Below, piece by piece: positions 49,852-64,000 of a DNA stretch of 64,000 bases; within the stretch, counting starts at the first letter, position 1, and each line of letters starts with the position of its first letter. Position numbers and translations under genes: made by a program. The stretch covers positions 434,001-498,000 of the forward strand of contig NZ_CP133111.1 of NCBI RefSeq assembly GCF_033001325.1, written 5' to 3'. This DNA is from Rhodopseudomonas sp. BAL398. Lineage in GTDB: Bacteria; Pseudomonadota; Alphaproteobacteria; Rhizobiales; Xanthobacteraceae. The notes beneath the pieces were generated by a model, which was not told the origin of the DNA, did not search any database, and worked only from the letters and a program-made list of their open reading frames with translations.

Positions 49852-50739
49852 ATGCCCGTCATGCAAAACATCAGCGGATCTGCTGGCTTGCGATCGACAC
49901 TCAAGATCGCCGTCTATCTCGGCACCATCCTGGTTCTCCTGATGCTTGTCGCGCGCTTTCCGCAATGGCCGGTCGGCGTCGCCGCGGCGCTGCTGCTCGG
50001 CCTGGCCTATGCGCATGGGCTGGAATTGCAGCACGAGGCGCTGCACGCGATCCTGCTGCCGACGCCGCGCGGCAATCGTCTGGTCGGCGCGCTGCTCGGC
50101 CTGCCGATGCTGACCACCTACACCGACACCAGGCTGCGGCATCTGCATCATCACCGCTTCGTCGGCACCACGCGCGACATCTATGATCGCAGCTGTCGCG
50201 ACTTCGCCAGCAGCGGCGCCGTGATCGCCCATGTGCTGAGCGCCGGCCGGCTGCGCGATTTCATCACCACGCTCGGCGCCCTGGCGGCCAACCGCGCCGA
50301 CCCGATCCTGAAAGGGCGCGCCTACGCATTGGCGCGCAACGAATTTGTCATAACGGCAATCGTGATGGCCGCGCTGCTGGCGTTCGCCGCCGCGATCGAT
50401 CTCCGGCTCGTGCTGTGGGGCTGGCTGGTGCCGGCGCTTCTGGTCGCGCCCGTGATCCACTTCCTGATGACCTCGCCGGAACATGTCGGGCGCGAACGCG
50501 CCTCGCGCGATCCGGCGCGGAATTCCCGAACCTATCCGGCATCGCCGCTGTGGAACTACCTGATCAATTACGACAATTACCACATCGAACATCATCTGCG
50601 TCCGACCCTGCCGTTTTGGCAATTGCCGGCCTTGCATGCCGCGCGCTGCCGCGCCGGCGCGCCATCCTGTCCGAACTATGTCCAGGCGATGCGCGAGGTG
50701 TTTCGCGGCATCGGTGCTTGTCTGCAATCGCGTGGCTGA
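49852..50739 (+). CDS. Membrane fatty-acid-desaturase-family protein
   Basis: The 295-residue diiron membrane enzyme has three His boxes: HEALH (about residues 62-66), HLHHH (about 96-100) and HIEHH (about 248). Four hydrophobic segments surround them. Family members desaturate or hydroxylate acyl chains, carotenoids or small molecules; Bradyrhizobium RtxC acts on dihydrorhizobitoxine. The C-terminal SCPNYVQAMREVF resembles such small-molecule or lipid desaturases. It lies upstream of the amidotransferase gene by 41 bases in the same direction, so it is probably part of the cluster. Confidence 0.85.
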   Translation: MPVMQNISGSAGLRSTLKIAVYLGTILVLLMLVARFPQWPVGVAAALLLGLAYAHGLELQHEALHAILLPTPRGNRLVGALLGLPMLTTYTDTRLRHLHHHRFVGTTRDIYDRSCRDFASSGAVIAHVLSAGRLRDFITTLGALAANRADPILKGRAYALARNEFVITAIVMAALLAFAAAIDLRLVLWGWLVPALLVAPVIHFLMTSPEHVGRERASRDPARNSRTYPASPLWNYLINYDNYHIEHHLRPTLPFWQLPALHAARCRAGAPSCPNYVQAMREVFRGIGACLQSRG

Positions 50740-50780: not shown

Positions 50781-52535
50781 ATGTGTGCGATCGCAGGAAT
50801 CCTGACGCTGTCCGGCTCCCCGGAGGTCCGCCCGATGCTCGACGCGCTGCGTCACCGCGGGCCCGACCAGATCGGGGTGACGCGGCTTGGCCCCTGCGAG
50901 ATCGGCGCGGCGCGGCTGGCCATCGTCGATCCCCACAATGGCGCGCAGCCGATGCGCGACCAGCGCGCCAACACCGCCGTCGTGTTCAACGGCGAAATCT
51001 ACAATGCCGACGAGCTGCGCGACGCGCTGATCGCGCTCGGCCATGTGTTTACCAGCCGCTGCGATACCGAGATGGTGCTGCGCGGCTGGATCGAATGGGG
51101 GCTCGATCTGCCGCAGCGCCTGCGCGGCATGTTCGCGATCGCGGTGCTCGAGCCCGATCGGCTCATTTTGCTGCGCGATCCGCTCGGCATCAAACCGCTG
51201 CGGTTTACCAGCCGCGGCGGCGAATTCCGCTTTGCCTCGGAGGCGAAAGCCTTGCTGGGTCATCTCGGCGCGACGCCGTCGCTCGACGACACCGCCTTTG
51301 CGGATTTCGTCGCACTCGGCTATCCGACCGGCGGCCGCACCTTCTTCGCCGGCATCTCGACGCTGCCGCCGGGGCACTATCTGACGGTGGACTGGGCGAA
51401 GGGGCTGCATGTCGGCGAGCCGCGGCCCTATCAGCTGCGCACGCCGCCGCCGCTTCCATCATGTCGCGAGCAGGCCGAGCAGCAATTCACCGAGGCGCTG
51501 CTGGCGGCGACCCGCAGCCATCTGCGCGCCGATGTCGAAGTCGCCGCGGTGCTGTCGGGCGGCATCGATTCGGCGATGCTGGCCTTCATGGCGGCCGAAC
51601 ACAGCGCCAAGCCGCTGCGCACCTTCACGGTCGCCGACGCGCCCGATCATCCCGACGCCGTCGCCGCGCAACGCGTCGCCTCGGCGATCGGCGCCGATCA
51701 CACGCTGTTGACCTTCGACTTCGACGATTATCTCGCGGCGATCCCCGCCACCATCGCGGCGGTCGAAGCGCCCGATCTGCATGCCGGGCCGTTCTTCCAT
51801 CTGATGTGCCGGCAGATCGGCCGCAGCGCCAAGGCCTGCATCAATGGCGAAGGCGCCGACGAAACCCTTGGCGGCTATTACGATCCCGACGAGACCGTGG
51901 CGACGCTGAATGCCGGATTCCGCCGCGCCGAAGCCGCGGGCCTGCAGCCCAGCGGCCGCGCCTTCGCGATCCGCGATGCGCTGATCACCGCCGCCGCGCA
52001 AGGCGCGCGGGGGCTGCGTGCGACGCTGGATATTTCCTTGCAAGACTTGCTCGAGCGCGCCCAGCTCGATCCGGTCGACGCGATCGCGATGGCCTCTGGC
52101 GTCGAGATGCGGGTGCCCTATCTCGATCCCGAGGTTCAGGCCGTGGTGCGCGGCCTGCCGCCCGATGACATCGTCGATGGCACGCTCGGCATCACCAAGC
52201 GGGTGCTGCGTCGCGCGGCGCTGCGCCGCTACGGCACGGCGATCTTCGACAGCGCGATGCGCCCGAAGATGATGATGCCGCATGCGCCGCGCGGCCATGC
52301 CAGCCGGTTCGCGCGGCTGTGCGAGCGCGCGGTGCCGCTCGCGGTCGTGCGACGCTCGGCATTCGGCCGCTGCTTTGCCAGCAGCAGCGATTTCGTGCTG
52401 TTCGAATTGTTTCGGCGAATCCATCTGTCGGGCGCGAGCCAAGCATTCACGATGACCGATTTGCTCGCCGATCTCGCAAGGGATTCACGCGGCGTGCCCC
52501 GCGCGATGGCGCCGGCAGAGGCGGTGGCGCCATGA
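50781..52535 (+). CDS. Asparagine-synthetase-B-like glutamine amidotransferase
   Basis: The 584-residue protein has an N-terminal class II glutaminase domain with nucleophile Cys2 (MCAIAGI), RLAIVD and FNGEIYN. The C-terminal ATP-dependent synthetase domain has the PP-loop SGGIDS (259-264) and GEGADE (356-361), then VEMRVPYLD and ITKRVLRRA. Glutamine-derived ammonia is used to amidate a carboxylate activated as an acyl-AMP. In a biosynthetic operon such enzymes often build amides other than Asn. A ggagg site precedes it. It opens an eight-gene unit; its stop overlaps the next start (ATGA). Confidence 0.92.
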   Translation: MCAIAGILTLSGSPEVRPMLDALRHRGPDQIGVTRLGPCEIGAARLAIVDPHNGAQPMRDQRANTAVVFNGEIYNADELRDALIALGHVFTSRCDTEMVLRGWIEWGLDLPQRLRGMFAIAVLEPDRLILLRDPLGIKPLRFTSRGGEFRFASEAKALLGHLGATPSLDDTAFADFVALGYPTGGRTFFAGISTLPPGHYLTVDWAKGLHVGEPRPYQLRTPPPLPSCREQAEQQFTEALLAATRSHLRADVEVAAVLSGGIDSAMLAFMAAEHSAKPLRTFTVADAPDHPDAVAAQRVASAIGADHTLLTFDFDDYLAAIPATIAAVEAPDLHAGPFFHLMCRQIGRSAKACINGEGADETLGGYYDPDETVATLNAGFRRAEAAGLQPSGRAFAIRDALITAAAQGARGLRATLDISLQDLLERAQLDPVDAIAMASGVEMRVPYLDPEVQAVVRGLPPDDIVDGTLGITKRVLRRAALRRYGTAIFDSAMRPKMMMPHAPRGHASRFARLCERAVPLAVVRRSAFGRCFASSSDFVLFELFRRIHLSGASQAFTMTDLLADLARDSRGVPRAMAPAEAVAP

Positions 52536-53173
52536 GTGCGATCCTGTTCGATCTCGACGGCGTGCTGATCGACAGCTGGGAAGCGGTCGAGTCCGCGTTC
52601 CTGGCGGCGTCGACCGAGCTCAGCGTCGACGGCGCGGCGCGGCTCGGCGATTTCCGCGCGCGGATGGGCATGCCGCTCGAAGCCATCGTCGATCAGTTCG
52701 GCTTTCCGCAGGCATTCCCGGCCTGCTTTCGCCACCATGCCCGCGCCCATGATCACAAGACCCGGGCATTTCCCGGCGTGGCGGCGATGCTGCACGCCAT
52801 CCGGCAATCGGCCAGGATCGGCGTCGTCACCGGCAAGGACCGGCCGCGCACGCTGATGCTGCTCGAGTCCACCGGACTGGCCCGATATGTCGACGCCGTG
52901 GTCAGCGCCAGCGACGCGCCCGGCAAGCCGCGGCCCGAGGGACTTTGGCTGTGCGAGCAGCGGCTCGGCGCCGCGGCGCTGGCCTTCATCGGCGACACCG
53001 CGATCGACCTGCTGGCCGCCCACAATGCCGGGCGGACCGCGGTGCTGGCGAGCTGGGGCGGCGGACCGCCGGTGTCCGCGCGGCCCGGTGTGATCGAGAT
53101 AGCTGCACCCGGCGACGTCGTAGCGTTGCTGCGCGCGCTGGACGGCGAGCCGCAGCGTCAGGCGGCGCCATGA
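52532..53173 (+). CDS. HAD-superfamily sugar phosphatase, RifM-like
   Basis: The 213-residue haloacid-dehalogenase-type phosphatase has the nucleophile/acid pair FDLDGV (Asp7, Asp9), motif II VVTGK, a motif III Lys in GKPRPEG and motif IV GDTAIDLLAAHNAG. It belongs to the beta-phosphoglucomutase-like subgroup. In rifamycin biosynthesis, RifM releases kanosamine from its UDP form; the adjacent RifL-, RifN- and RifK-like genes support an equivalent role here. Both ends overlap neighbours by 4 bases (ATGA). Confidence 0.85.
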   Translation: MSAILFDLDGVLIDSWEAVESAFLAASTELSVDGAARLGDFRARMGMPLEAIVDQFGFPQAFPACFRHHARAHDHKTRAFPGVAAMLHAIRQSARIGVVTGKDRPRTLMLLESTGLARYVDAVVSASDAPGKPRPEGLWLCEQRLGAAALAFIGDTAIDLLAAHNAGRTAVLASWGGGPPVSARPGVIEIAAPGDVVALLRALDGEPQRQAAP

Positions 53174-54237
53174 TGACCGCGTCGGCGCCTCGATTGGGCC
53201 TCGGGATCTGCGGCTGCGGCTGGGTGGTGCGTAGCTGCTATCGGCCGGCGCTGGCGCAATGCGAGGCGCTGTTTGCGGTCGTCGCGGTGTATGATCCACA
53301 GCCCGAGGCGTTGCGCTTTGCGGCGCAAGCCTGGCCCGCGGCAAAACTCTGCGCCAGCCGCGACGCACTGCTGGCGCAGCGCCTGGATGCGGTGCTGGTG
53401 GCGTCGCCGAATGCGCGGCACCTCGATGATGCGGTGGCGGCGCTCGACGCCGGGATCTCCTGCCTGGTGGAAAAGCCGGTGGTACGCGGTGTTCACGACG
53501 CCGCGCGGCTGCGCGCCGCGACGCGGCCGTCGGCCCGGCTGGTCAGCGGCGTCGCCTGCCGGTTCCGCGATGACACACAGCTGTGGCTCGACCATGTCGG
53601 GCAGATCGGCGCGCTGCGCGAACTCGATCTGCTGTGGAGCCGCGAGCACGGCGTGCCGGCGGCGAATTGGCATCTCAAACGCGATCACGGCTGGACCGGG
53701 GTGTTCGCCGATCTCGGCTATCACCTGCTCGATATCGCCGGCGCCGCTTTGCATTGGCGGCTGGCTCCGCTCGAATTGCTCGAGGCCAGTCGCACGTCGC
53801 GGCGCAGCGGCGGCGGCGCCGGCTGGTACAAGCGGCAAGGCGAGGCCGAACTCGTTCAATATGACACCGACGACCATTTTGACGCGACGCTGCGGCTGGG
53901 CGATTGCCGGATCCGGTTGCGGGTCAGCTGGATCGACGATCAGCCCGGCGATCTGGTGCGGCTGGCGGCGCGCGGGCCGTCCGGCGAGGCGGTGCTCAGC
54001 GGGCTGTTCGGATTCTCCGACAACCGGCGCGACCCCGATCAGCAGGTGATGCTGCGACGCGACGGTGAGCCGTTCCGGCGCGCCGACTTTGCGCCGGGGC
54101 CCGGATTGCAGCTGACGGCATTCGAACATCTGCTGGGGCATTTTCATCGCAGCGTGATGGGGCAGATCGCCGACCAGAGCGATGAGCTGCTGTTCGTCGC
54201 CACGCTGGCCGGCGCGATGCAGGCGGGGGCGTCATGA
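53170..54237 (+). CDS. Gfo/Idh/MocA-family sugar dehydrogenase, RifL-like
   Basis: The 355-residue NAD(P)-dependent oxidoreductase has the dinucleotide motif LGLGICGCGWVV, the signature EKPV (about residue 105) with its catalytic Lys, and DLGYHLLDIAG with the catalytic-type Asp/His. The family oxidises sugar hydroxyls. RifL oxidises C3 of UDP-glucose to give the substrate for the aminotransferase; the 3-keto sugar route is inferred from the neighbours. Start and stop both overlap neighbouring genes by 4 bases. Confidence 0.87.
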   Translation: MMTASAPRLGLGICGCGWVVRSCYRPALAQCEALFAVVAVYDPQPEALRFAAQAWPAAKLCASRDALLAQRLDAVLVASPNARHLDDAVAALDAGISCLVEKPVVRGVHDAARLRAATRPSARLVSGVACRFRDDTQLWLDHVGQIGALRELDLLWSREHGVPAANWHLKRDHGWTGVFADLGYHLLDIAGAALHWRLAPLELLEASRTSRRSGGGAGWYKRQGEAELVQYDTDDHFDATLRLGDCRIRLRVSWIDDQPGDLVRLAARGPSGEAVLSGLFGFSDNRRDPDQQVMLRRDGEPFRRADFAPGPGLQLTAFEHLLGHFHRSVMGQIADQSDELLFVATLAGAMQAGAS

Positions 54238-55118
54238 CCGAAGCGATTTTCGCGGTCGATCTCGGCGCCACCTGGCTGCGCAGCGCGCTGGTCGATCCGG
54301 CGCGGCGGCTGGCGATGAAAGCGGTGGCGGCCACGCCGGATCGCGCGGCTGATGCGTGCGCGATCATCGACGCCGCCTGGCGCCGCGCCGGATGCCCGCG
54401 CGCCGTGGCGCTGGCGAGCGCGCCGGAATTGACCGCCGATGCAATGGTGCGACGCTGGCCGAACCGGCGCGCTTATGAGGGCGGAAGCCTGCTCAGCACC
54501 ACGATCCGCGACGCCGCTGTCGTGGCGATGGTAGATGACGCCGCTGCGGCGGCGATCGCCGCGCATCCGTTCGAGCGGCGCGATGCGGGGCCGACGATCT
54601 GTATCAGCATCGGCAGCGGCATCGGCGGCGGCGCGGTGATCGATGGCGTGCCGCTGACCGGCGCCAATGGCGCGGCGATGGATCTCGGCCACATGCCGGT
54701 GCCGTCCGCCACGGGGCTGCGCTGTTCATGCGGCCGCGTCGGCTGCCTGCAGGCGGCCGCATCGGGCTTCGCCCTGCGAGACCTGGTGGCCGCGTCGCCC
54801 GACGCGCTGCTTCAGAGTCCGGATGTGGCGTCCGCGCTGCAACGCGCGAGCGCGGCGCTGGGCGAGGCGATCGTCATCGTGAACGCGGTGTTCGATCCGG
54901 CCCGCATTGCGATCGCGGGCGGCCTGGGGCTGTCGCCGCTGTTCGACCAGATCGAAGCCGAATTGATCGCGCGGCACATCACGGTCTCGATCGCACGCCA
55001 CCGCTGCGGCGACGATGCCGGGCTGGTCGGCGCGGCGATCGGCTTTGGGCTGAACAGGACGGCGCCCGGACGGGTCGGGCACGACAATCAGGAGCGGGTG
55101 GTCTCTCATGCAGACTGA
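54234..55118 (+). CDS. ROK-family sugar kinase, RifN (kanosamine kinase)-like
   Basis: The 294-residue kinase has the ATP motif VDLGATWLRSAL, a catalytic-type Asp at 101/102 in VDDAAAAA, a zinc site His153 plus CSCGRVGC (Cys164, 166, 171) and GSGIGGGAVIDG. The usual EIGH is DLGH here. RifN phosphorylates kanosamine at O6, and this gene occupies the matching place in the set. The stop lies 11 bases inside the next gene. Confidence 0.87.
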   Translation: MTEAIFAVDLGATWLRSALVDPARRLAMKAVAATPDRAADACAIIDAAWRRAGCPRAVALASAPELTADAMVRRWPNRRAYEGGSLLSTTIRDAAVVAMVDDAAAAAIAAHPFERRDAGPTICISIGSGIGGGAVIDGVPLTGANGAAMDLGHMPVPSATGLRCSCGRVGCLQAAASGFALRDLVAASPDALLQSPDVASALQRASAALGEAIVIVNAVFDPARIAIAGGLGLSPLFDQIEAELIARHITVSIARHRCGDDAGLVGAAIGFGLNRTAPGRVGHDNQERVVSHAD

Positions 55119-56325
55119 TTTTTCCAATCGAATTCCATCATGGCCGCGCTTCGACGATGCGGACGCCGATGATCTCAACGCCGTGCTGCAATCGCGCCAT
55201 TGGTGGCGCGGCAATGGCGGCGTCGGCGACGCCTTCGAGGCGGCGTTCGCCGCCGCGATCGGTGTCGATCACGTCCGCGTCGTGGCCAACGGCACGCTGG
55301 CGCTGGAATTGGCGCTCGAGACGCTCGGCGTCGTTCCCGGCGACGAGGTGATCGTGCCGGCATGCACGTTCATTTCGACCGCCTCCGCGGTGCTGCGGCT
55401 CGGCGCCTGGCCGATCCCGGTCGATGTCGAGCGCGACACCCTGAATATCGACATCGCCGCCGTCGCCGCGGCGATCACGCCGCGCACGAGCTGCATCATT
55501 CCGGTGCATATGGCGGGCCATGCCGTCGATATGCCGGCACTGCTGGCGCTGGCGCGGCCGCGCGGCATTGCGGTGCTGGAAGACGCCGCGCATGGCCATG
55601 GCGGGCGCGCCTTCGGCCAGGCGCTCGGCGCGCTCGGCGATGCGGCGATCTTCAGCTTCCAGTCCGGCAAGCTGATGACCTGCGGCGAGGGCGGCGCGGT
55701 GGCGACCAGCCGCCCCGACATCGCCGCGCAGACCTTCGCGCGGCATTCCTGCGGGCGGCCGCAGGGCGATACCGAGTATCGGCACCTGATGCCGGCGACC
55801 AATATGCGGCTGAGCGAATTCCAATCGGCCTTGCTCAATGGCCAGCTGCGTCGGTTGCCGGCGCAAGCCGCGCAGCGCGAACGGATGGGGCCGTTGTTCG
55901 AGGCCCATCTGCGCGATGTCGGCCTCGCGCCGCTGCGACGCCGGGACTATGTCGAGCGCCATGGCCGTTACATGACGATGGCGTGGTTCGATCCGGACGA
56001 ATTCGGCGGCCGCGATGCCGGCGCGCTGGCGGCGGCGTTGCGGGCGATCGGAATTCCCGCTTATCGCTGTTTTCCGGAAGTGCATCGCACCGGCATGTTC
56101 GCCGCGCCGGCCTTGCATCGGCGATCGATCGCACCGATTCCCGATTACGAACGCATCGCGACGCCGGTAGCCGCCGCCGCGGCGCGCGCCGTGCTGTGGT
56201 TTCCCCATCCGCTGCTGCTCGGCGACGAGGCATTGCTGGCCGATATCGCGGGCGCGATCGGCGCATTGCGCAGCGCCAGGCGAACCGCCGTCACGGCGCA
56301 ACAATTCGGGCGCGAAACCGCATGA
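55108..56325 (+). CDS. DegT/DnrJ/EryC1 aminotransferase, AHBA-synthase (RifK)-like
   Basis: The 405-residue PLP enzyme matches AHBA synthase along its length as I recall it: a WPRFDD-type start, WWRGNGG, VANGTLALELAL, VPACTFIS, PVHMAGHAVDM, Asp159 in EDAAHGHG, PLP Lys188 in FSFQSGKLMTCGEGG, then RHSCGRP and NMRLSEFQ. RifK has two roles: forming the aromatic ring of AHBA and transaminating UDP-3-ketoglucose to UDP-kanosamine. No aminoDHQ pathway gene is seen here, so the sugar aminotransferase role is favoured. It overlaps both neighbours. Confidence 0.9.
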   Translation: MQTDFSNRIPSWPRFDDADADDLNAVLQSRHWWRGNGGVGDAFEAAFAAAIGVDHVRVVANGTLALELALETLGVVPGDEVIVPACTFISTASAVLRLGAWPIPVDVERDTLNIDIAAVAAAITPRTSCIIPVHMAGHAVDMPALLALARPRGIAVLEDAAHGHGGRAFGQALGALGDAAIFSFQSGKLMTCGEGGAVATSRPDIAAQTFARHSCGRPQGDTEYRHLMPATNMRLSEFQSALLNGQLRRLPAQAAQRERMGPLFEAHLRDVGLAPLRRRDYVERHGRYMTMAWFDPDEFGGRDAGALAAALRAIGIPAYRCFPEVHRTGMFAAPALHRRSIAPIPDYERIATPVAAAAARAVLWFPHPLLLGDEALLADIAGAIGALRSARRTAVTAQQFGRETA

Positions 56326-57680
56326 GCGGGCCGCATCAGCTCGTCGCGGCGATCGCGGCTGGGCGGTTGCTGCTGCCGTCCGGCGATGAGACATCGATTG
56401 CCAAAATGTGGGACGACACCGCCGCCGATTCCGGGCCGTGGCGGCCGGGCGACCGCGTGGTGATCGACCAGGCGGGCGGGGCGGCACTGCTCGGCGCGAC
56501 GCTGGCGCTGTGGCGATCCGGCGCCGTGCCGGTGCTCGGCGCGGGTGCCGAGGTCGGCGACTGGCCGGCCGATGTCGCGGTGTGGCGCTGGTCCGACCGC
56601 GCGCAGCTACGTCGCGCGTCGTCGGTCGATCCTTCGCCACCGGCGCTGATCCATGCCTCGTCGGGTTCGACCGGCCCGCCGAAACTGGCGCGGCGGTCGT
56701 TCGAAAGCCTGCGCGTCGAGGCGCGGCGCTACGTCGCCTGCTACGGATTCGCCGCCGGCCAGCGCGGCTGCGTGGCGGCGCCGATCGACCATTCCTTCGC
56801 GTTCGGCGCGATGCTGGGTCTGCTCGCGGCGGGCGCGTCGGTGGGGCTGCTGCCGAGCCTGCATCCACGCGCATTGGCGCGCGCGCTGCGCGACGACGAC
56901 ACCGACATCGTCATCCTGACGCCCGCGATGGCGCGGCTGGCGATCGAGGCGGCGGGTCGCGACGCGGCTCCCGCCACGCCGACATCGCGTCTGGTGATCG
57001 CCGGCGCCGGCGCGGTGCCGGACGCGCTCGACGCTGATTTTCGTAGCGCCTTCGGCTGCGGGTTGGCGCGCAATTACGGCTGTTCGGAAACCGGCGCGAC
57101 CTTCGGCTCGCGCATGTCGTTGCCGGAATTTTGTCTCGGCTTTGCCTTCGACGGCGTGACCATCGTCTCGCCGCAGTCCGGCACCGGCGAATTGGTGCTC
57201 GATCTCGGCCACGCCATCGCGGGGATCGAGGGGCAGCCGCGCGCGCGTGAGCTCCGCAACGGAATCTGGCGCAGCGGCGATTTCGCCTTCCGTACCACCG
57301 ACGGCAGCGTCGCGCTGCGCGGGCGGATCGACGACCGAGTCAAGATCAACGGCCATCTGATTGATTGCGGCCAACTCGCGGCACGGGCCCGCACCATCGC
57401 CGGTGTCGTCGATGCGGTGGCGCTCGCGCAGCCGCGTCCGGGGCGCGCGGAAATCCAGGATCTGATTCTGTTTTGCGAGGCGGCCGACGGCTCCGGACCG
57501 CAAATCGCCGCCGCCGTCGCGCCGATCGCCGGCGCGGTTCCTGTCGTGGTGCTGACGCTGCCGGAATTGCCGCGCACGCCGGCGGGCAAGCCGGATCACG
57601 ACGGCCTTCGGCGGTTGGCGCGTGCGCGGCTGGGTCGCAGGCCCATCGCTGCTCGGCGGTTGCAGGGGCAATCGCCATGA
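56322..57680 (+). CDS. AMP-forming acyl/aryl ligase
   Basis: The 452-residue adenylate-forming enzyme has the P-loop SSGSTGPPK (113-121), NYGCSETGATFG, RSGDFAFRTTDGS, GRIDDRVKINGHLID and a C-terminal TPAGKPD Lys. It is shorter than typical 520-residue acyl-CoA ligases, because the N-terminal subdomain is trimmed. A stand-alone ACP is encoded 3 kb downstream, so loading an acid onto that ACP is a reasonable role. Start and stop overlap neighbours by 4 bases. Confidence 0.87.
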   Translation: MSGPHQLVAAIAAGRLLLPSGDETSIAKMWDDTAADSGPWRPGDRVVIDQAGGAALLGATLALWRSGAVPVLGAGAEVGDWPADVAVWRWSDRAQLRRASSVDPSPPALIHASSGSTGPPKLARRSFESLRVEARRYVACYGFAAGQRGCVAAPIDHSFAFGAMLGLLAAGASVGLLPSLHPRALARALRDDDTDIVILTPAMARLAIEAAGRDAAPATPTSRLVIAGAGAVPDALDADFRSAFGCGLARNYGCSETGATFGSRMSLPEFCLGFAFDGVTIVSPQSGTGELVLDLGHAIAGIEGQPRARELRNGIWRSGDFAFRTTDGSVALRGRIDDRVKINGHLIDCGQLAARARTIAGVVDAVALAQPRPGRAEIQDLILFCEAADGSGPQIAAAVAPIAGAVPVVVLTLPELPRTPAGKPDHDGLRRLARARLGRRPIAARRLQGQSP

Positions 57681-58684
57681 CCGACGAGGCGGCTTGCATC
57701 GCGGATCGGGCCGGCAACGCGGCGCTGCTGCCGCATTTCGCACCGCATCCGCAAGGTTTGCAAACCGCCGGCGGTCGCGTCGTCGCGCTCGACGACAATG
57801 AACGTGAGTTGATCGGTCGTTGCGCTGAAGCGGAGTGCCACGTCGATGCGGTTTCGGACGCCGAGCGGGCGTCGCTGCAACGGCTGGTCGAGGCAGGTTA
57901 TCTACTGCTGCTGCCGCCACCCGCCGCGGTGCCGACCGCCCCGGTCGATGTGGTGCTGTCGCCGCATATCGACGACGCCGCCTTGTCGCTCGGCGGCGCG
58001 ATCGCGTTGCGCGGCGGCGTGGCGCGCACACTGGTGCTCAACATCTTCTCGTCGCAATCCTATCAGACCGGCCTGCGGGTGCCGGCCGAGCGGCTCGACG
58101 CCATCGCGCTGGCCGAGGACCGGCTGGCCGGGCGCTTGCTGGGCTATCATGGCCATTGCCTCGGCCTGCGCGGCGCCCAGGATCGCCATCGGCTCGGCGT
58201 CGCGTCGGTGATGGGCTGGAGCGCCGCCGCCGTGCTGGCGCAATCACAGCTACGCGACGACATCGAACTGGTGACGGGGCAGGCCGCGGCGGCGATCGGC
58301 GCCGCGCTGGGTCGTGCGCCGATTGCCGATCTGTTCGCGCCGGCGGCGATCGGCGGGCACCTCGATCATGTCATCGTCGCGCTGGCAGCGCCGCACATCG
58401 CCGCGCGGCTCGGCGTGCCGGCCGAGCGCATCGTGCTCTATGAGGACCTGCCTTACGCCGCGGCGGATCTCGGCGGCGGCGTCGCGCTGCATGGCCGCGT
58501 CGCTCGCCTCGCCGATATCACCGCCACCGCGGCGATCAAGCGCTCCGCTTTGACGGTGTTCAAAACCCGGCTGCGGGCGCCGCAGATCGCGCTGTGCATG
58601 GCACATGCCGGCCGCGCGGCGAAGGCCGGCGCTGCCGAGCGGCGCTTCGTCACGCCGGGGGTTTTCGACATGGAGCAGCCATGA
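57677..58684 (+). CDS. PIG-L/LmbE-family deacetylase with an N-terminal extension
   Basis: The 335-residue protein has a zinc deacetylase domain with SPHIDDAALSLGG (96-100) and GHLDHVIV, the standard zinc ligands. Family members deacetylate N-acyl aminosugars (for example GlcNAc-PI, GlcNAc-malate). Before it lie about 85 residues (VVALDDNERELIGRC ... LVEAGYLLLLPP) with the length and strand/helix pattern of a PqqD-like or winged-helix domain; this part is tentative. The aminosugar genes alongside make an N-acyl aminosugar substrate plausible. It overlaps both neighbours by 4 bases. Confidence 0.85.
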   Translation: MTDEAACIADRAGNAALLPHFAPHPQGLQTAGGRVVALDDNERELIGRCAEAECHVDAVSDAERASLQRLVEAGYLLLLPPPAAVPTAPVDVVLSPHIDDAALSLGGAIALRGGVARTLVLNIFSSQSYQTGLRVPAERLDAIALAEDRLAGRLLGYHGHCLGLRGAQDRHRLGVASVMGWSAAAVLAQSQLRDDIELVTGQAAAAIGAALGRAPIADLFAPAAIGGHLDHVIVALAAPHIAARLGVPAERIVLYEDLPYAAADLGGGVALHGRVARLADITATAAIKRSALTVFKTRLRAPQIALCMAHAGRAAKAGAAERRFVTPGVFDMEQP

Positions 58685-59832
58685 AGTATTTCCTCTATCA
58701 CGACCTGATCATCGCCGGAAATTGGTGCAATCTGAAATGCAGCTATTGCACCTCGGTCGCCGATGCCGATGATTTCGGCATTGAGACCTCGGCATCGCGG
58801 CGCGGCAAGGGCGCCAGTATCGCGGTCGCCGATGTGCTGGCGATGCTGGATGGCCTCGCTACTCATGTCGACGCGCCGGTGATCAAGGTCAGCGGCGGCG
58901 AATTATTCCTGCTCGCCAATGCGACCGAGCTGATCGACGAGCTGGCGCGGCGCTACGCCCATGTCCAGGTGCTCACCAATGGCACCGAGCTCGACGCCGC
59001 CACCGTGCGCCGCATCGCCGCGCTGGGCAATGTCAGCTTCAATCTGTCGCTCGACGGCCACGCGCCGCAGATGAACGCGATGCGCTGGCGCTCGGCGCGG
59101 ATCGGCGAGCGGGTGATGGCGGCATTCGCCGCGATGGTGGCGCAGGGCACGGTGCTGGAAATCACCAGCGTGATCAGCGACGCGAATGCGGCCGCGTTTC
59201 CGGCCTTTCTCGAATTTCTGCGGAAGCAGCCGTGCCGCATCATCGTGGTGCCGATCCCGGTGCGCGGTGTCCATGCGGCATCGCTGTTCGCGCCGGCGTC
59301 GCGCGCGGGCTTTGCCGCCGCGCTGCCCGGCATCGCGCGCGATTATCGCGAGGTGCTGGGGCCGCCGGCCTATTATCACGCGCTGGCCGATTTCCTCGCC
59401 GTCGACCAGGGCCGGCGCCGCGCCCGCTGCCATTTGGCGAAGGCCGCGGTGCAAATCTTCGACACCGGCGCGGTGACGCCGTGCCCGGTCGGCTGGACGC
59501 TGGAGATCGGCAATCTCAAGCGCGACGGCGTGGTCGCGGTGGCCGGGCAGATCGGCACCCACAAGATGTATGAGCTGTTGACCCGCGATCGCCCGCGCGT
59601 GCCGGTGTGCCGGACCTGCTTCAGCCAGGCCGATATTCTCAACCTCTATCTCGACGGCGCGATCGGGCTCGACGACATCGCCATGATGCCGCTGTATCAC
59701 TCCGCAGCCGCGCGGCGCAGGCTGGTGGCGCTGCGTGGCGCCATCAGCCGGCCGGCGGCGTCGATGGTGTCGCAGCTCGGCAGCAGCGAGATCAGCAGCA
59801 GATCGGCCAGAGCAGGCGGATCGTCGAACTGA
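58681..59832 (+). CDS. Radical SAM enzyme with SPASM-like C-terminus
   Basis: The 383-residue protein has the [4Fe-4S] motif C16-x3-C20-x2-C23 (NWCNLKCSYC), the SAM-binding KVSGGELFL and LTNGTELD, and extra C-terminal cysteines (RCHLAKAAVQIFDTGAVTPCPV and VPVCRTCF) suggesting an auxiliary cluster. It resembles SPASM/twitch enzymes that act on peptides or sugars. Last gene of the eight-gene unit. Its final 136 bases overlap the 3' end of a gene on the other strand. Confidence 0.86.
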   Translation: MKYFLYHDLIIAGNWCNLKCSYCTSVADADDFGIETSASRRGKGASIAVADVLAMLDGLATHVDAPVIKVSGGELFLLANATELIDELARRYAHVQVLTNGTELDAATVRRIAALGNVSFNLSLDGHAPQMNAMRWRSARIGERVMAAFAAMVAQGTVLEITSVISDANAAAFPAFLEFLRKQPCRIIVVPIPVRGVHAASLFAPASRAGFAAALPGIARDYREVLGPPAYYHALADFLAVDQGRRRARCHLAKAAVQIFDTGAVTPCPVGWTLEIGNLKRDGVVAVAGQIGTHKMYELLTRDRPRVPVCRTCFSQADILNLYLDGAIGLDDIAMMPLYHSAAARRRLVALRGAISRPAASMVSQLGSSEISSRSARAGGSSN

Positions 59833-60542
59833 TCGCCGGGCGCGATTCCGGCCTGCACGGCGCAGCGCCGCGCCAGCGCCTCGGCGCCGGACCAGTCCTG
59901 CGCAGCGCAGCAGCGCAACGCGTCGGACAGCATCGCGACATGGCCGAGCCAGGCCTCGGCCGCAGCCGCGAGCCGGCGCAGCCGATCGGTGCTGTCCCGA
60001 GCGCAAAGCTCGGAGGCCTCCGCCACGGGAGCATTATGGCGCAGCACGGCCGCGGCCGCGGTGCAGGCCACCAGCGCGCGCAGCGTCCTGGTCTTCATCA
60101 GATGCTCGGCCAGGAACAGCCTCGTGCGCACCGTTAGTGCTGCTTGCGGGTCGATCGCCGCGGCGATCTGCTTTTGCGTGGCGCCATGCACCACATGGAC
60201 CGCGAAGGCATCGACCAGCCGGAACGGCAGATAGGCCAGCGCCAGCGCCATGCCGGCCTGTTCGGTGCTCATCGTGCCGGCGGCCTCGCGCATCAGCCGC
60301 GCGGCGTCGTCGTCATCGCCCTCGAACCGCAAGATGGCGGCAAAGCGATCGCCGTCGCTTTGCCCGCAGGCGATCGCCCGCGCCGCATCGACCAGCGCGC
60401 GCAACTGCCGCAAATCCTCGAGGGCGATCGTGTCGCTGAACATATGCGTCAGCGGCACCAGCTGCTGCTTGGCGGCGAATTCCAGCACCAAGCAGCGCCC
60501 CCAGGTCCGCATGCTGCGCCTGTGATGCTGGGCGATCGTCAT
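59697..60542 (-). CDS. Helical protein of unknown function in the cluster
   Basis: The 281-residue, all-helical, Ala/Leu/Arg-rich protein starts MTIAQHHRRSMRTW. It has six scattered cysteines and the stretch HLMKTRTLRALVACTAAAAVL. No catalytic motif or membrane span is convincing. A ggagga site 6 bases upstream fixes the start. A CGTATAAGTTG box lies just upstream of that site on the same strand, so it is divergently transcribed from the ACP gene under a shared control region. I do not recognise the family. Confidence 0.65.
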   Translation of the reverse strand: MTIAQHHRRSMRTWGRCLVLEFAAKQQLVPLTHMFSDTIALEDLRQLRALVDAARAIACGQSDGDRFAAILRFEGDDDDAARLMREAAGTMSTEQAGMALALAYLPFRLVDAFAVHVVHGATQKQIAAAIDPQAALTVRTRLFLAEHLMKTRTLRALVACTAAAAVLRHNAPVAEASELCARDSTDRLRRLAAAAEAWLGHVAMLSDALRCCAAQDWSGAEALARRCAVQAGIAPGDQFDDPPALADLLLISLLPSCDTIDAAGRLMAPRSATSLRRAAAE

Positions 60543-60560
60543 TGCATGTCCTCCGCATTT

Positions 60561-60604
60561 CAACTTATACGAGATTTCCAGATTGACGACTATCGTATAA
60601 GTTG
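60561..60604. promoter_or_regulatory. Inverted pair of CGTATAAGTTG boxes in the divergent control region
   Basis: caacttatacg at 60561-60571 and cgtataagttg at 60594-60604 are exact reverse complements separated by 22 bases. One faces the unknown gene, the other the ACP gene. The same word lies at 49425-49435. Confidence 0.65.
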
Positions 60605-60674: not shown

Positions 60675-60995
60675 ATGGAGCACCCGACAGATCCCGGCAC
60701 GACTGAGCAAAATGCGGCGTTGACGCGCAGGCTCAGCGCCATCCTGGCGGAGATCATGGCGGTCAAGGGCGGGCTGCCGGAGCCGCTCGATCTGCGGACC
60801 AGTTTCACCGCGCTGGATTTCAGCTCGGTCGACTATCTGGAATTCGTCCTCAACGTCGAAGCCGATCTCAATATCGACATTCCCGATGAGGCGCTGCTCG
60901 ACCCGGCGCTGTGTTCGGTGGCGACCTGGGCGGATTGGCTGGCCGACAATGCCGCCGCCTTACGGACCCCGGCGATCGGAACAAGCAGCGCATGA
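60675..60995 (+). CDS. Acyl carrier protein
   Basis: The 106-residue acidic four-helix carrier matches E. coli ACP around its prosthetic-group site: FSSVDYLEFVLNVEADLNIDIPDEAL aligns with [24 protein letters not shown]. The phosphopantetheine Ser is Ser51; the usual preceding Asp is Ser50. About 35 extra residues precede the core. The start at 60675 follows ggag by 9 bases. Its stop overlaps the next gene (ATGA), so carrier and radical SAM/GT protein are translated together. The AMP ligase of the cluster is its likely loader. Confidence 0.85.
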   Translation: MEHPTDPGTTEQNAALTRRLSAILAEIMAVKGGLPEPLDLRTSFTALDFSSVDYLEFVLNVEADLNIDIPDEALLDPALCSVATWADWLADNAAALRTPAIGTSSA

Positions 60996-63766
60996 CCGCC
61001 GCGCCGCACCGGGTCGCGTTGGTCGGGCCGCGCGAAGCGCCGTTCGCCGGCGACCCCGACATCGAACATCGCGAGACCATGCTGCGCGACTATCAGGAGA
61101 TCTGCGGCAGCATCGCCACCTTCGGCTCCGACTACACGCTGTCGCGCGAATTCCTCGGCATCGAATATCTGGCGGCCAGCTTGCGCCGTGACGGCTGCGA
61201 GGTTCGGCTGATCTGCGCCAGCAATGAGGGCTTGGGCGACGACGCCTTGCTGGCCGAATTGCTCGGCTTCGCGCCGCGCGTGGTCGGCATCTCGGTCCTG
61301 TATGATTTGCAGCTGGCCAATGCGATCGTGCTGGCGCGGCGGCTGAAGGCGGCGCGGCCTGATCTGACCATCGTGTTCGGCGGCCCGCTCGCCAGCGCGC
61401 TCGCCGACCTGCTGCTGACGAATTTTGCCTTCATCGACTACGTGATCGCCGGCGAGGGCGAGGAGGCGCTGCGCCGATTGGTGCGCGCGGTGGCGGGTCA
61501 GGATCTGGCCGCCGTGCCGGCGCTGCTGCGGCGCGGCGAGAGCGGCGTGCTGCGCCATCCGCGCGGCGAACCGCTCGAACTCGATTCGCTGCCGCATCCG
61601 TCGCGCGACGTCATCGCCTCGATCAAGGCCCGCGGGCTGCCGGTGCCGAGCGCCTATCTCACCACCTCGCGCGGCTGCAAGGCGTTCTGCACCTTCTGCA
61701 CCGTGCCCAATACGGTGCGCGGCATGACATCGGGCGTGTACCGGATGCGCGATCCGGTCGACGTCGTCGACGAGATGGCGGCGCTGGTGCGCGACCACGG
61801 CGTCAGCCGCTTCTACATGGCCGACGATAATTTCCTCGGCTATGGCGAAGACAGCAATGCGCGGATGCTGGCCTTCGCCGACGAACTGATCCGGCGCAAT
61901 CTGGGGATTCACTTTCACGCCGAATGCCGGGTCGACTCGCTGGTGCCGGAGACGCTGCTGCGGCTGCGCGCCGCCGGCTTCGACCAGATCCTGTTCGGCC
62001 TGGAATCCGGTTCGCCGCGCACGCTGAAGCGCTGGGCCAAGGGCCAGACCGTGGCGCAGAACGAGGCCGCGATCGCGCTGGCGCGGCGGCTGGGGATCGA
62101 GATGATGCCGAGCATCATTCTGCTCGATTGGGAATCCGAACTGTCCGAGGTCGAGGAGACGGTCGGCTTTATCGAACGCAACCGGCTTTATGGCGGCGTG
62201 CAGCCGCTATGGCTGGTCAACAAGCTCAAAGTCCATTGCGGCACCGCCGCGGCGCGGCGCTATGACAAGGTCCATGGCCGGCCGGTGCTGCCGGCGATCG
62301 GTGACGAGGCCGGCATTCATCGCTGGTGCGCGGCCGCGACCTATCAGGGCGTGGCGATCGACAATCCCTATGTGGCGTCGTTCTGGCGCGCGCTCAACGG
62401 CGCGGCCAATCGCTGGTCGCTGCTGCTCGACGAAGTGCTGCCGCCGTTCCTGAAGAACGTGCGCGCCATCGCCCGCCATAGCGACAAGTCCCACCATCTC
62501 GATCTGGTGCGGCAGCTGGCGCTGTTCCGCCGCGCGATCGGCCCGTCGCTCGCCGAACTGATGCGTCTGCTGATCGATCAGGCGATGGAGCTGGAGCGCG
62601 CGCGGGCGCCGCGGCCGGAGCAGCGCGCCGCCGCGCTGGATTTCGTCACGGCCTGCGAGCGACGCTTCTTCCCCGACGGCCTGGCGGAAGCGCTGCGCGA
62701 CCACGGCCGCCACCGTCGCGCCTCGTCATTGCGAGCGGAGGACGGCGCGCCGCGCCGTCCGATCGGCGAAGCAATCCAGGGGCCCCAAATTCAGACGTCG
62801 CGTGACACCCTGGATTGCTTCGTCGCAAGGGCTCCTCGCAATGACGACGTTGAGCGTCAGATCAAGCCCCCGGCGTCGCCCGCGATCTCGGTGATCATTC
62901 CGACCTGCAACAAGCCGGAACGGCTGCTGCTGACGCTGCACGCGCTGTTGCGGCAGAGCGCCGGCGGCGGCTTCGAGGTGTTGGTGGTCGCCGATGGCGG
63001 CGGCGTCGCGACGCGGGATGCGGTTGGCGCCATCGGCGATAGGCTCCACATCAGTCTGATCGAGACGCCGCGGATCGGGCAGGCGGCGGCGCGCAATCGC
63101 GGCGCGGCGCGGGCGCGCGGAGAGGTCATCCTGTTCGTCGATGACGACGTATTGCTGTCGCCCGGTTATCTCGAGACCTGCGCGAAGCTGTACCAAGGCG
63201 ATGGCGTGGTGGTGCGTGCGCCGGTCTATCAGCTGCGCTATCTCGCCGCGTTCCGCGATCCGGAGCGGGGCCTGCTGTATGACGACGATGGCGCGCGGCG
63301 GGCCGGCTCCAGGCTCGGCGACCAGCGCATCAGCCGCGCCATGATCGTCAATGACTGGCCCAGCATTGCGCGCAAATGCCAGCACCGCAATCGCTTCGAG
63401 CGGCTGGTATCGCAGACCCTGCAATCCGCCGATCCGCGTTTCCCATGGCTCGGCCTTTCGGGCTCGGGCGTCGCACTGAAGCGCCCGCTCTTTCAACAGA
63501 GCGGCGGCTATGACGAGGCGTTCGGGCTGCGCTGGGGCGCGGAATCGATCGAGCTCGGCTACCGGCTGTGGCGGGCCGGTGCGCGCTTCGTCGAGGCCGA
63601 TTCGATTTACTCCGCGCATATGGACCATCCGCGCGGCGGCTCGCTCGACAGTTTCGAGGCGAGCTTCGAATTGTTTTTCGCCAAGCATCGCGATCCGGCG
63701 ATCCGCGAGGTGCAGGCCCTGATCCTGGCCGATGATCGCCGCCCGCGCGCCTCAGCGGCCGGGTGA
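60992..63766 (+). CDS. B12-binding-type radical SAM protein fused to a family-2 glycosyltransferase
   Basis: The 924-residue protein has three parts. An N-terminal Rossmann domain (about 1-165) has the fold layout of B12-binding domains, without a clear DxHxxG cobalt-ligating motif. A radical SAM domain has C229-x3-C233-x2-C236 (RGCKAFCTFC), MADDNF and FGLESGS. A GT-A glycosyltransferase domain runs from about 630: ISVIIPTCNKPERLL, ARNRGAARARG and the DDD motif FVDDDVL. Residues 578-618, joining the last two, are the translation of a genomic repeat. Class-B-like radical SAM enzymes methylate or rearrange unactivated carbons. Confidence 0.85.
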   Translation: MTAAPHRVALVGPREAPFAGDPDIEHRETMLRDYQEICGSIATFGSDYTLSREFLGIEYLAASLRRDGCEVRLICASNEGLGDDALLAELLGFAPRVVGISVLYDLQLANAIVLARRLKAARPDLTIVFGGPLASALADLLLTNFAFIDYVIAGEGEEALRRLVRAVAGQDLAAVPALLRRGESGVLRHPRGEPLELDSLPHPSRDVIASIKARGLPVPSAYLTTSRGCKAFCTFCTVPNTVRGMTSGVYRMRDPVDVVDEMAALVRDHGVSRFYMADDNFLGYGEDSNARMLAFADELIRRNLGIHFHAECRVDSLVPETLLRLRAAGFDQILFGLESGSPRTLKRWAKGQTVAQNEAAIALARRLGIEMMPSIILLDWESELSEVEETVGFIERNRLYGGVQPLWLVNKLKVHCGTAAARRYDKVHGRPVLPAIGDEAGIHRWCAAATYQGVAIDNPYVASFWRALNGAANRWSLLLDEVLPPFLKNVRAIARHSDKSHHLDLVRQLALFRRAIGPSLAELMRLLIDQAMELERARAPRPEQRAAALDFVTACERRFFPDGLAEALRDHGRHRRASSLRAEDGAPRRPIGEAIQGPQIQTSRDTLDCFVARAPRNDDVERQIKPPASPAISVIIPTCNKPERLLLTLHALLRQSAGGGFEVLVVADGGGVATRDAVGAIGDRLHISLIETPRIGQAAARNRGAARARGEVILFVDDDVLLSPGYLETCAKLYQGDGVVVRAPVYQLRYLAAFRDPERGLLYDDDGARRAGSRLGDQRISRAMIVNDWPSIARKCQHRNRFERLVSQTLQSADPRFPWLGLSGSGVALKRPLFQQSGGYDEAFGLRWGAESIELGYRLWRAGARFVEADSIYSAHMDHPRGGSLDSFEASFELFFAKHRDPAIREVQALILADDRRPRASAAG
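62725..62845. repeat. GTCATTGCGAG...CTCGCAATGAC repeat inside a coding sequence
   Basis: This second copy of the 17806-17911 element has outer arms gtcattgcgag and ctcgcaatgac and inner arms gaagcaatcca and tggattgcttc conserved. It lies in frame between the radical SAM and glycosyltransferase domains, encoding about 40 residues. Confidence 0.88.
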
Positions 63767-64000
63767 CGCGGTGTCGAGGAAGGCGGCCAGTTGCTCGGTG
63801 CCGCGGGCGAAGATTGCGGGATCGACCGCGCAAGAGACGCGGACCCAGAAACGATCGCAGGAGGCGTCGTCGTGATCGGCAAACACCGTCTCGGTGTAGA
63901 AATCGGTGCCGGCCTGGTCGAAGGCGGCGGCGACGAAGTCCCATTCGGTGAGGCCGGTGTGGAGCCGGACGCAATGATTGAAGCCGGATTGCAGTGCGAT
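63752..64000 (-). CDS. C-terminal fragment, possibly of a fold-type I PLP aminotransferase
   Basis: The open frame on the minus strand runs from the window edge to a TGA at 63752-63754, giving 82 residues. GFNHCVRLHTGLTEWDFVAAA, TDFYTETVFAD and RFWVRVSCAVDPAIFARG resemble the small C-terminal domain of class I/II aminotransferases, but the active-site Lys lies outside. It overlaps the end of the radical SAM/GT gene by 15 bases. The family call is tentative. Confidence 0.5.
   Translation of the reverse strand: MALQSGFNHCVRLHTGLTEWDFVAAAFDQAGTDFYTETVFADHDDASCDRFWVRVSCAVDPAIFARGTEQLAAFLDTASPGR

Follow-up and report, generated by a model that had tools for sequence, protein, structure and literature searches.

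The window analysed here is a stretch of 64,000 nucleotides from the alphaproteobacterium Rhodopseudomonas sp. BAL398 (GCF_033001325.1, NZ_CP133111.1, positions 434,001-498,000; C1:434001-498000 in our numbering). The genome is labelled G000 and is 99.99% complete. Four adjacent genes at 52532-56325 encode a HAD phosphatase, a Gfo/Idh dehydrogenase, a ROK kinase and an aminotransferase resembling 3-amino-5-hydroxybenzoic acid (AHBA) synthase. A first-pass annotation of the same DNA had read them as equivalents of RifM, RifL, RifN and RifK, which provide the sugar branch of AHBA biosynthesis. The four genes were confirmed by overlapping plus-strand open reading frames (ORFs), by profile searches and by their recurrence in a second genome, G107, and profile and structure matches support the RifM/L/N/K-type family assignment. 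The operon limits proposed at first, 52532-56325, were too narrow. The overlapping plus-strand gene run extends from an asparagine-synthetase-like gene at 50781 to a radical SAM gene ending at 59832, and the conserved cluster continues for about 4.3 kb beyond the window end. The block common to G000 and G107 begins with a desaturase gene and ends with a gene for a pyridoxal phosphate (PLP)-dependent decarboxylase. The genes are as follows, with identities to the alphaproteobacterial carriers G107, G067, G095 and G339.

49852..50739, plus strand: fatty-acid-desaturase-type oxygenase, first gene of the conserved cluster (PF00487, 131 bits; identity 60% G107, 53% G067)
50781..52535, plus strand: asparagine-synthetase-like amidotransferase (TIGR01536, 331 bits, above cut-off; identity 71% G107, 65% G067)
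52532..53173, plus strand: HAD phosphatase, RifM-like (identity 69% G107, 62% G067, 44-46% G095/G339)
53170..54237, plus strand: Gfo/Idh dehydrogenase, RifL/MitG-like (PF01408, GFO_IDH_MocA, 56 bits; identity 62% G107)
54234..55118, plus strand: ROK sugar kinase, RifN-like (PF00480, 99 bits; identity 59% G107, 57% G067)
55108..56325, plus strand: AHBA-synthase-like PLP aminotransferase of the DegT type, RifK/MitA-like (DegT, 286 bits; structures 1b9i/1b9h, 271 bits)
56322..57680, plus strand: AMP-forming ligase, MitE-like, with an altered motif (PF00501, 74 bits; mitomycin-type model, 124 bits)
57677..58684, plus strand: PIG-L-type de-N-acetylase, MitC-like by place and motif (PF02585, 21.8 bits, below the cut-off of 28.2)
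58681..59832, plus strand: radical SAM protein with extra cysteines, MitD-like (mitomycin-type model 256 bits, best NCBIfam model 50 bits)
59697..60563, minus strand: conserved protein of no recognised family (zero Pfam matches; identity 58% G107, 54% G067)
60675..60995, plus strand: acyl carrier protein (ACP), MmcB-like role (PF00550, 25 bits)
60992..63766, plus strand: fusion of a B12-binding radical SAM protein and a GT2 glycosyltransferase, the GT2 part MitB-like (PF02310, 72 bits; PF04055, 70 bits; PF00535, 73 bits)
63752..64000, minus strand: class I aminotransferase, 3' part of a gene crossing the window edge (L009:752-2191; PF00155, 66 bits; identity 75% G107, 67% G067)

The end of the asparagine-synthetase-like gene overlaps the start of the HAD gene. 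The conserved minus-strand gene at 59697-60563 lies inside the cluster and overlaps the end of the radical SAM gene. Beyond the window, the adjoining stretch L009 carries the class I aminotransferase gene, a gene for a protein without Pfam match and the PLP decarboxylase gene. The second of these (L009:2266-4080) encodes a conserved 604-residue protein with zero Pfam matches, and its position differs in G067.

The HAD, Gfo/Idh, ROK and DegT/AHBA-synthase-like genes adjoin in one operon, as expected of a RifK-L-M-N set. The HAD protein matches HAD_2 with 93 bits, and its top NCBIfam model is TIGR01454 (AHBA_synth_RP), at 89 bits and short of the cut-off of 246.65. The order of all four genes is kept in G107 (59-77% identity), and three of the four recur in G067 (57-72%). 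In G067 the Gfo/Idh gene is absent between the HAD and ROK genes (L019:14982-15053) and the remaining operon genes are kept; the top Gfo match elsewhere in this genome, which is 66% complete, is weak. A ROK gene is retained in or beside all five alphaproteobacterial clusters; the relatives in G339, within the cluster, and in G095, roughly 3 kb away from the cluster genes, are weaker (33-38%).

Two further observations concern the sugar enzymes. The ROK protein (54234-55118) and its counterparts in G107 and G067 read D-x-G-H at the position of E-x-G-H, which we take to be the sugar-binding motif of ROK kinases; the sugar preference may have changed. A type I phosphodiesterase/nucleotide pyrophosphatase (PF01663) is encoded in G095 (L022:6884-8551) and on a mitomycin-type contig (L177:7061-8623). 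By cleaving UDP-kanosamine, such an enzyme could supply kanosamine 1-phosphate and so leave an ordinary phosphatase reaction to the HAD enzyme. No relative of it was found in the window region.

To place the cluster, relatives were collected from other genomes. In the Streptomyces order, aminotransferase matches occurred at 56 places in 51 of 391 genomes (E <=1e-55), and the stretch around each place was examined, some stretches being ended by contig ends. Loci whose stretch includes a RifG-like 3-dehydroquinate (DHQ) synthase but lacks the radical SAM set were taken as ordinary AHBA loci (23 rows). Six genomes (G580, which is Streptomyces bobili, G729, G962, G888, G674 and G596) carry relatives of the aminotransferase, Gfo, HAD, radical SAM, ligase and GT2 proteins, all in a single stretch except in G888 and G596, where they are spread over adjacent stretches of the same contig. 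The G888 genes run AHBA synthase, GT2, PIG-L, radical SAM and ligase, followed by a short-chain dehydrogenase/reductase (SDR) and Gfo, an order that we take to be mitA-B-C-D-E-F-G. Because the G888 contig also encodes MmcR (612 bits to 3gwz) and a mitomycin-binding protein (253 bits to 1kmz), G888 was taken as a mitomycin-type cluster and used as the anchor. G596 has a relative of the mitomycin-binding protein (71%). The S. bobili cluster (L035, L181) combines RifG-like and RifJ-like genes with mitomycin-type genes and has near copies in G729 and G962; carbamoyltransferase, Rieske oxygenase and shikimate-dehydrogenase-like genes were named there by eye, without a profile.

Among the alphaproteobacteria, G107 matched all 15 searched cluster proteins in one region (51-79% identity), and G067 matched 14 of the 15 (30-72%), partly rearranged. 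G095 and G339 carry clusters with MitA-, MitB-, MitD-, MitE- and MitF-like genes (L022 and L205; L105 and L106), and they outscore the window type on the radical SAM model described below (475 and 469 bits) and on the ligase model (336 and 314 bits). Both carry a relative of the SDR that G888 encodes between its ligase and Gfo genes; the G095 copy is 55% identical to that of G339 and 46% to that of G888. The PIG-L gene was identified in G339 but not in G095. Judged by these scores and genes, the G095 and G339 clusters appear intermediate between the Streptomyces clusters and the window type, and closer to mitomycin than the window cluster is.

Four mitomycin-type rows from the Streptomyces order (G888, G674, G729 and G580) served to build kinship models. 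With these models the window aminotransferase scored 343 bits, the radical SAM protein 256, the GT2 part 181, the Gfo protein 154 and the ligase 124, versus 182, 50, 101, 46 and 74.5 bits with the best NCBIfam models; for Gfo the top NCBIfam matches were generic (inositol dehydrogenase). To gauge specificity, 13,961 ORFs from 230 sources were scanned at E 1e-5; with the radical SAM model there were 16 matches, every one in a cluster-bearing stretch. For the GT2 model, cluster members scored down to 115 bits and the best other protein 51. MitA-, MitB-, MitD- and MitE-like enzymes co-occur with an ACP in the window cluster, the ligase match being the least specific.

The radical SAM alignment has 45 invariant columns over 10 rows, the six aligned ACPs have a serine at the expected attachment site, and the PIG-L-type protein keeps PHxDD and GGHxDH in alignment with the G888 protein. 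The nearest solved structure of the PIG-L-type protein is teicoplanin pseudoaglycone deacetylase (25 bits). The parts consulted of two publications describe MitB, MitC, MitD, MitE, MitF and MmcB as working on ACP-bound AHBA (PMC8621148, PMC9570651).

At 62700-62880 of the window, the B12-binding radical SAM and GT2 parts are fused in one frame in G000, and they occupy separate overlapping frames in G107 and G067. The linker between the two parts contains 14-mers that occur two or three times in about 97 kb, and it resembles a small interspersed repeat that joined the two genes.

The aminotransferase was compared with solved structures and placed in a tree. Its nearest structures are the AHBA synthase of rifamycin biosynthesis (1b9i/1b9h, 271 bits) and then the 2-deoxy-scyllo-inosose (DOI) aminotransferase BtrS (181 bits). 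The residue Lys188 and the motifs FSFQxGKLMT (here FSFQSGKLMT) and RHSCGRP, all noted in the first-pass annotation, were recovered; Lys188 does not vary between the window protein and three relatives. For the phylogeny, 41 rows were selected for a careful tree, which superseded a quick tree of 101 rows with 21 weak forks (L158, L195, L030 and L022 were left out of the quick tree because of stops). In the 41-row tree the aminotransferase shares one branch with the AHBA-synthase and mitomycin-type rows (support 97/89), and on this placement it is a sister to the AHBA synthases. A single clade of the five alphaproteobacterial aminotransferases was neither supported nor rejected (p-AU 0.456). NtdA was also compared; it gave 87 bits against 271 for AHBA synthase, and NtdA-type kanosamine synthesis was rejected.

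The dedicated genes for aminoshikimate synthesis were searched in the window, in its surroundings and in all carriers. The earlier statement that the window lacks an amino-3-deoxy-D-arabino-heptulosonate 7-phosphate (aminoDAHP) synthase, an aminoDHQ synthase and an aminoDHQ dehydratase holds, and the check was carried over to the genome and the four other carriers. No RifG, RifH or RifJ relative occurs in the window or in the next 32 kb; only single genes lie far away. These are one class II DAHP synthase (PF01474, C1:2069928), one DHQ synthase (PF01761, C1:4463737) and one type II DHQ dehydratase (PF01220, C1:780128). No dedicated aminoshikimate genes were found in the G000 genome, class I DAHP synthase and type I DHQ dehydratase not having been searched. 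Class II DAHP synthase and DHQ synthase each occur once in all five carriers (G000, G107, G067, G095 and G339), the 66% completeness of G067 limiting its gene-copy counts. The type II DHQ dehydratase is single in four of the five, and G339 has a second at C1:4403947, far from the cluster.

Related clusters in the Streptomyces order also lack part of this set. In the S. bobili draft genome, class II DAHP synthase is present once, but RifG-like and RifJ-like genes lie in the cluster. G674 shows a single class II DAHP synthase and, above the family cut-off, a single DHQ synthase, and a RifJ-like gene adjoins its HAD gene. Missing genes alone therefore do not exclude AHBA. S. bobili and G674 have no second class II DAHP synthase, and G674 no second DHQ synthase, so borrowing of primary enzymes may extend beyond G000. 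The first-pass annotation had also concluded that a kanosamine-type intermediate is made instead of AHBA. The gene absence behind this conclusion stands, but "instead of AHBA" is left unsettled, as the next genes match mitomycin enzymes that handle AHBA.

The cluster is rare and scattered in the sampled genomes. With the own genome included, the aminotransferase was matched at E <=1e-60 in 4 of 198 genomes of the family, and the radical SAM protein at E <=1e-40 in 2 of 397 genomes of the order. In 385 class genomes and 398 phylum genomes, where only a few first-look candidates were scored per genome and known carriers were perhaps not among the genomes drawn, the radical SAM model matched only the own genome at E <=1e-30. 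A plasmid scan gave no match at E 1e-10 in 72,556 records. In a contig scan with the four-row aminotransferase alignment, the matches listed were mostly generic DegT proteins and the close relatives were not among them; a related set at E 1e-6 was present at just one of 80 retained loci, L035 (Streptomyces bobili). No report of AHBA or mitomycin clusters in proteobacteria, alphaproteobacteria or Gram-negatives was found among the open papers listed, which does not prove absence. To our knowledge, mitomycin-type chemistry is known only from Streptomyces.

From the families, the operon, the conservation, the kinship and the missing genes we infer the substrates, the reactions, the product and the recruitment of primary shikimate enzymes described in the following. 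A mitomycin-type front end that works on the ACP and is fed by a kanosamine branch is likely. A more specific version is favoured only tentatively: the cluster would be a divergent alphaproteobacterial mit/mmc-type cluster with the four genes as its sugar branch, and shikimate enzymes borrowed from primary metabolism would supply the acid, AHBA or a closely similar amino-aryl acid. In favour of this version stand the kinship scores of the downstream genes, the ROK gene kept in or beside all five clusters and the tree branch shared with AHBA synthases. The Gfo/Idh dehydrogenase and the aminotransferase would convert UDP-glucose to UDP-kanosamine, the HAD enzyme would release kanosamine, and the ROK kinase would form kanosamine 6-phosphate. 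According to the part consulted of a review, the kinase product in the rif pathway is passed through an isomerase and transketolase to imino-erythrose 4-phosphate (imino-E4P), and in E. coli strains supplied with rifI, aroE, tktA and glk the native enzymes take imino-E4P on to aminoshikimate (PMC8788734). In the window organism an isomerase, whose gene was not identified, followed by the host transketolase, class II DAHP synthase, DHQ synthase and DHQ dehydratase, would lead to aminodehydroshikimate, and the same aminotransferase would turn this into AHBA or a close amino-aryl acid. The MitE-like ligase would then load the acid on the ACP, the GT2 domain would attach an N-acetylated aminosugar, the PIG-L enzyme would deacetylate it, and the MitD-like radical SAM protein would rearrange the ACP-bound glycoside. 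The product is probably a new relative of the amino-sugar antibiotics.

Several results weigh against this AHBA version. The rows of the models had themselves been found using window proteins, which biases the scores upwards. The ligase and Gfo models lack specificity (38 and 108 matches), and 18 long ORFs at AHBA loci, which we take to be loading modules of ansamycin synthases, outscore the window ligase (17 at 150-180 bits, one at 135). The ligase of the trio formed by the window, G107 and G067 reads HSFAFGA at the position of HAYALGW, a motif that presumably lines the substrate pocket; HAYALGW is kept in two MitE proteins, G674, S. bobili, G095 and G339, and G729 has HAYPLGW. Searches of 98 kb of G000 (96 kb distinct) gave no relative of the MitF-position SDR, RifJ, RifG, the carbamoyltransferase, MmcR or the mitomycin-binding protein. 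For the SDR, carbamoyltransferase, MmcR and mitomycin-binding protein, tblastn at E 1e-8 gave no match in these 98 kb, nor in 53 kb of G107 or 41.6 kb of G067. Four of the five alphaproteobacterial carriers show single shikimate enzymes only, and no evidence was seen that alphaproteobacterial shikimate enzymes accept amino analogues.

The aminotransferase itself supplies further objections. In the 41-row tree it lies outside the actinobacterial clade that contains the AHBA synthases (100/99), on a long stem of 1.32, so that its expected grouping with AHBA synthases held for the shared branch but not for that clade. Its identity to the 23 AHBA-locus rows is 40-44%, yet its identity to other DegT rows also rises to as much as 41%. 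Arg365 is lost in the window trio and kept by G095, G339 and the AHBA synthases. Diagnostic residues were defined as 65 positions typical of the 23 AHBA-locus rows and rare in 52 other rows. The window aminotransferase keeps 20 of the 65, the other alphaproteobacterial rows 19-21, five mitomycin-type rows 38-51 and PDB 1B9H 63, in a test whose positions may mirror descent as much as function, all 23 rows being from the Streptomyces order. In the outgroup three rows (L178, L188 and L189) keep 25-27 and the remainder at most 13; these three fell within the actinobacterial clade in the 41-row tree.

A kanosamine branch without AHBA, a refined form of the first-pass reading, is possible though somewhat doubtful. 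The four genes would then provide UDP-kanosamine or kanosamine as the sugar part, and a different acyl unit would be handled by the mitomycin-type ligase, ACP, GT2, deacetylase and radical SAM proteins. The lack of dedicated aminoshikimate genes with single class II DAHP and DHQ synthases in all five carriers, the position and residues of the aminotransferase, the changed ligase motif and the missing MitF relative all agree with it, and the GT2 domain of the cluster could use UDP-kanosamine. However, a UDP-kanosamine donor needs neither the HAD nor the ROK enzyme, both of which are retained in or beside all five clusters; the PIG-L-type enzyme suggests that the donor is N-acetylated, as it is for mitomycin; and no other acid source for the ligase is evident in the cluster. 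A related possibility, which we consider rather unlikely, is that the mitomycin assembly line has turned from AHBA and that kanosamine itself enters an ACP-bound aminoglycoside, giving a new class of amino-sugar metabolites. The ligase, glycosyltransferase, deacetylase and two radical SAM enzymes would in that case convert the ACP-bound aminoglycoside.

It is improbable that the Gfo/Idh dehydrogenase and the aminotransferase act on another keto group, either C3 of an ACP-bound glucosaminyl glycoside, as in pactamycin, or an inosose, with the HAD and ROK enzymes working on another phosphosugar. The generic NCBIfam matches of the Gfo protein and the scyllo-inosose substrate of the second-best structural relative of the aminotransferase would suit such a role, and pactamycin clusters also contain radical SAM, glycosyltransferase, polyketide-synthase-type and sugar-modifying genes in the part consulted of PMC13402214. 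Against it, the aminotransferase scores 271 bits to AHBA synthase and 181 to the inosose enzyme and branches with the AHBA synthases, no DOI-synthase-type gene was found, and the sole DHQ-synthase-fold gene lies far from the cluster. DOI- or valiolone-type aminocyclitol synthesis was rejected, the genome having one DHQ-synthase-fold gene. A GnnA/GnnB-type synthesis of UDP-diaminosugars was another candidate that was considered. It is barely credible that widespread sugar-enzyme families ended up side by side by chance and share no pathway. The size of the HAD, ROK and Gfo/Idh families and the modest scores of the HAD and Gfo proteins against named models would allow it, but the reading frames overlap, the order is kept in G107 and, minus Gfo, in G067, and related sets occur in G095, G339 and six genomes of the Streptomyces order.

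If the set runs on primary shikimate enzymes alone, as in the AHBA version favoured above, whether primary enzymes can feed a natural aminoshikimate pathway becomes testable. The role of the mitomycin radical SAM protein would become testable as well, by comparing relatives with a changed ligase motif and without a MitF-like gene. If kanosamine were used directly, a new product class would follow.

The cluster can be compared with four known systems. Pactamycin biosynthesis (ptm/pct) uses a ligase, an ACP, a glycosyltransferase, a deacetylase, a radical SAM protein and sugar oxidation and transamination. The likeness, compared by description only and not by sequence, is in this enzyme logic, and we know of no AHBA-synthase-like aminotransferase or HAD/ROK pair in the pactamycin cluster. 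The ntdABC/kabABC systems of Bacillus share a dehydrogenase, a PLP aminotransferase and a phosphatase that would make kanosamine (for the pathway, the part consulted of PMC8788734). The window differs in that its aminotransferase is not of the NtdA type and that a ROK kinase and mitomycin-type genes are added. NtdC is presumably a member of the Gfo/Idh family and NtdB of the HAD family. With the rifamycin-type AHBA operon the window shares the RifK, RifL, RifM and RifN families in one operon. It differs from that operon in that no dedicated RifG, RifH or RifJ was found, in that the aminotransferase is placed as a sister of the AHBA clade, and in that no polyketide synthase gene was noticed by eye in the ORF lists (no profile search was made). 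The mitomycin clusters (mit/mmc, Streptomyces) share with the window the AHBA-synthase-like aminotransferase, Gfo/Idh, HAD, GT2, radical SAM and AMP-ligase proteins, probably also the PIG-L protein, relatives of the B12-binding radical SAM protein, and the ACP. In contrast to mitomycin, the cluster described here has the B12-binding radical SAM protein fused to GT2 and a changed ligase motif, and it carries in addition an asparagine synthetase (AsnB), a desaturase, a class I aminotransferase and a PLP decarboxylase. The cluster is probably a rare new variant of the mitomycin-type cluster, located in an alphaproteobacterium.

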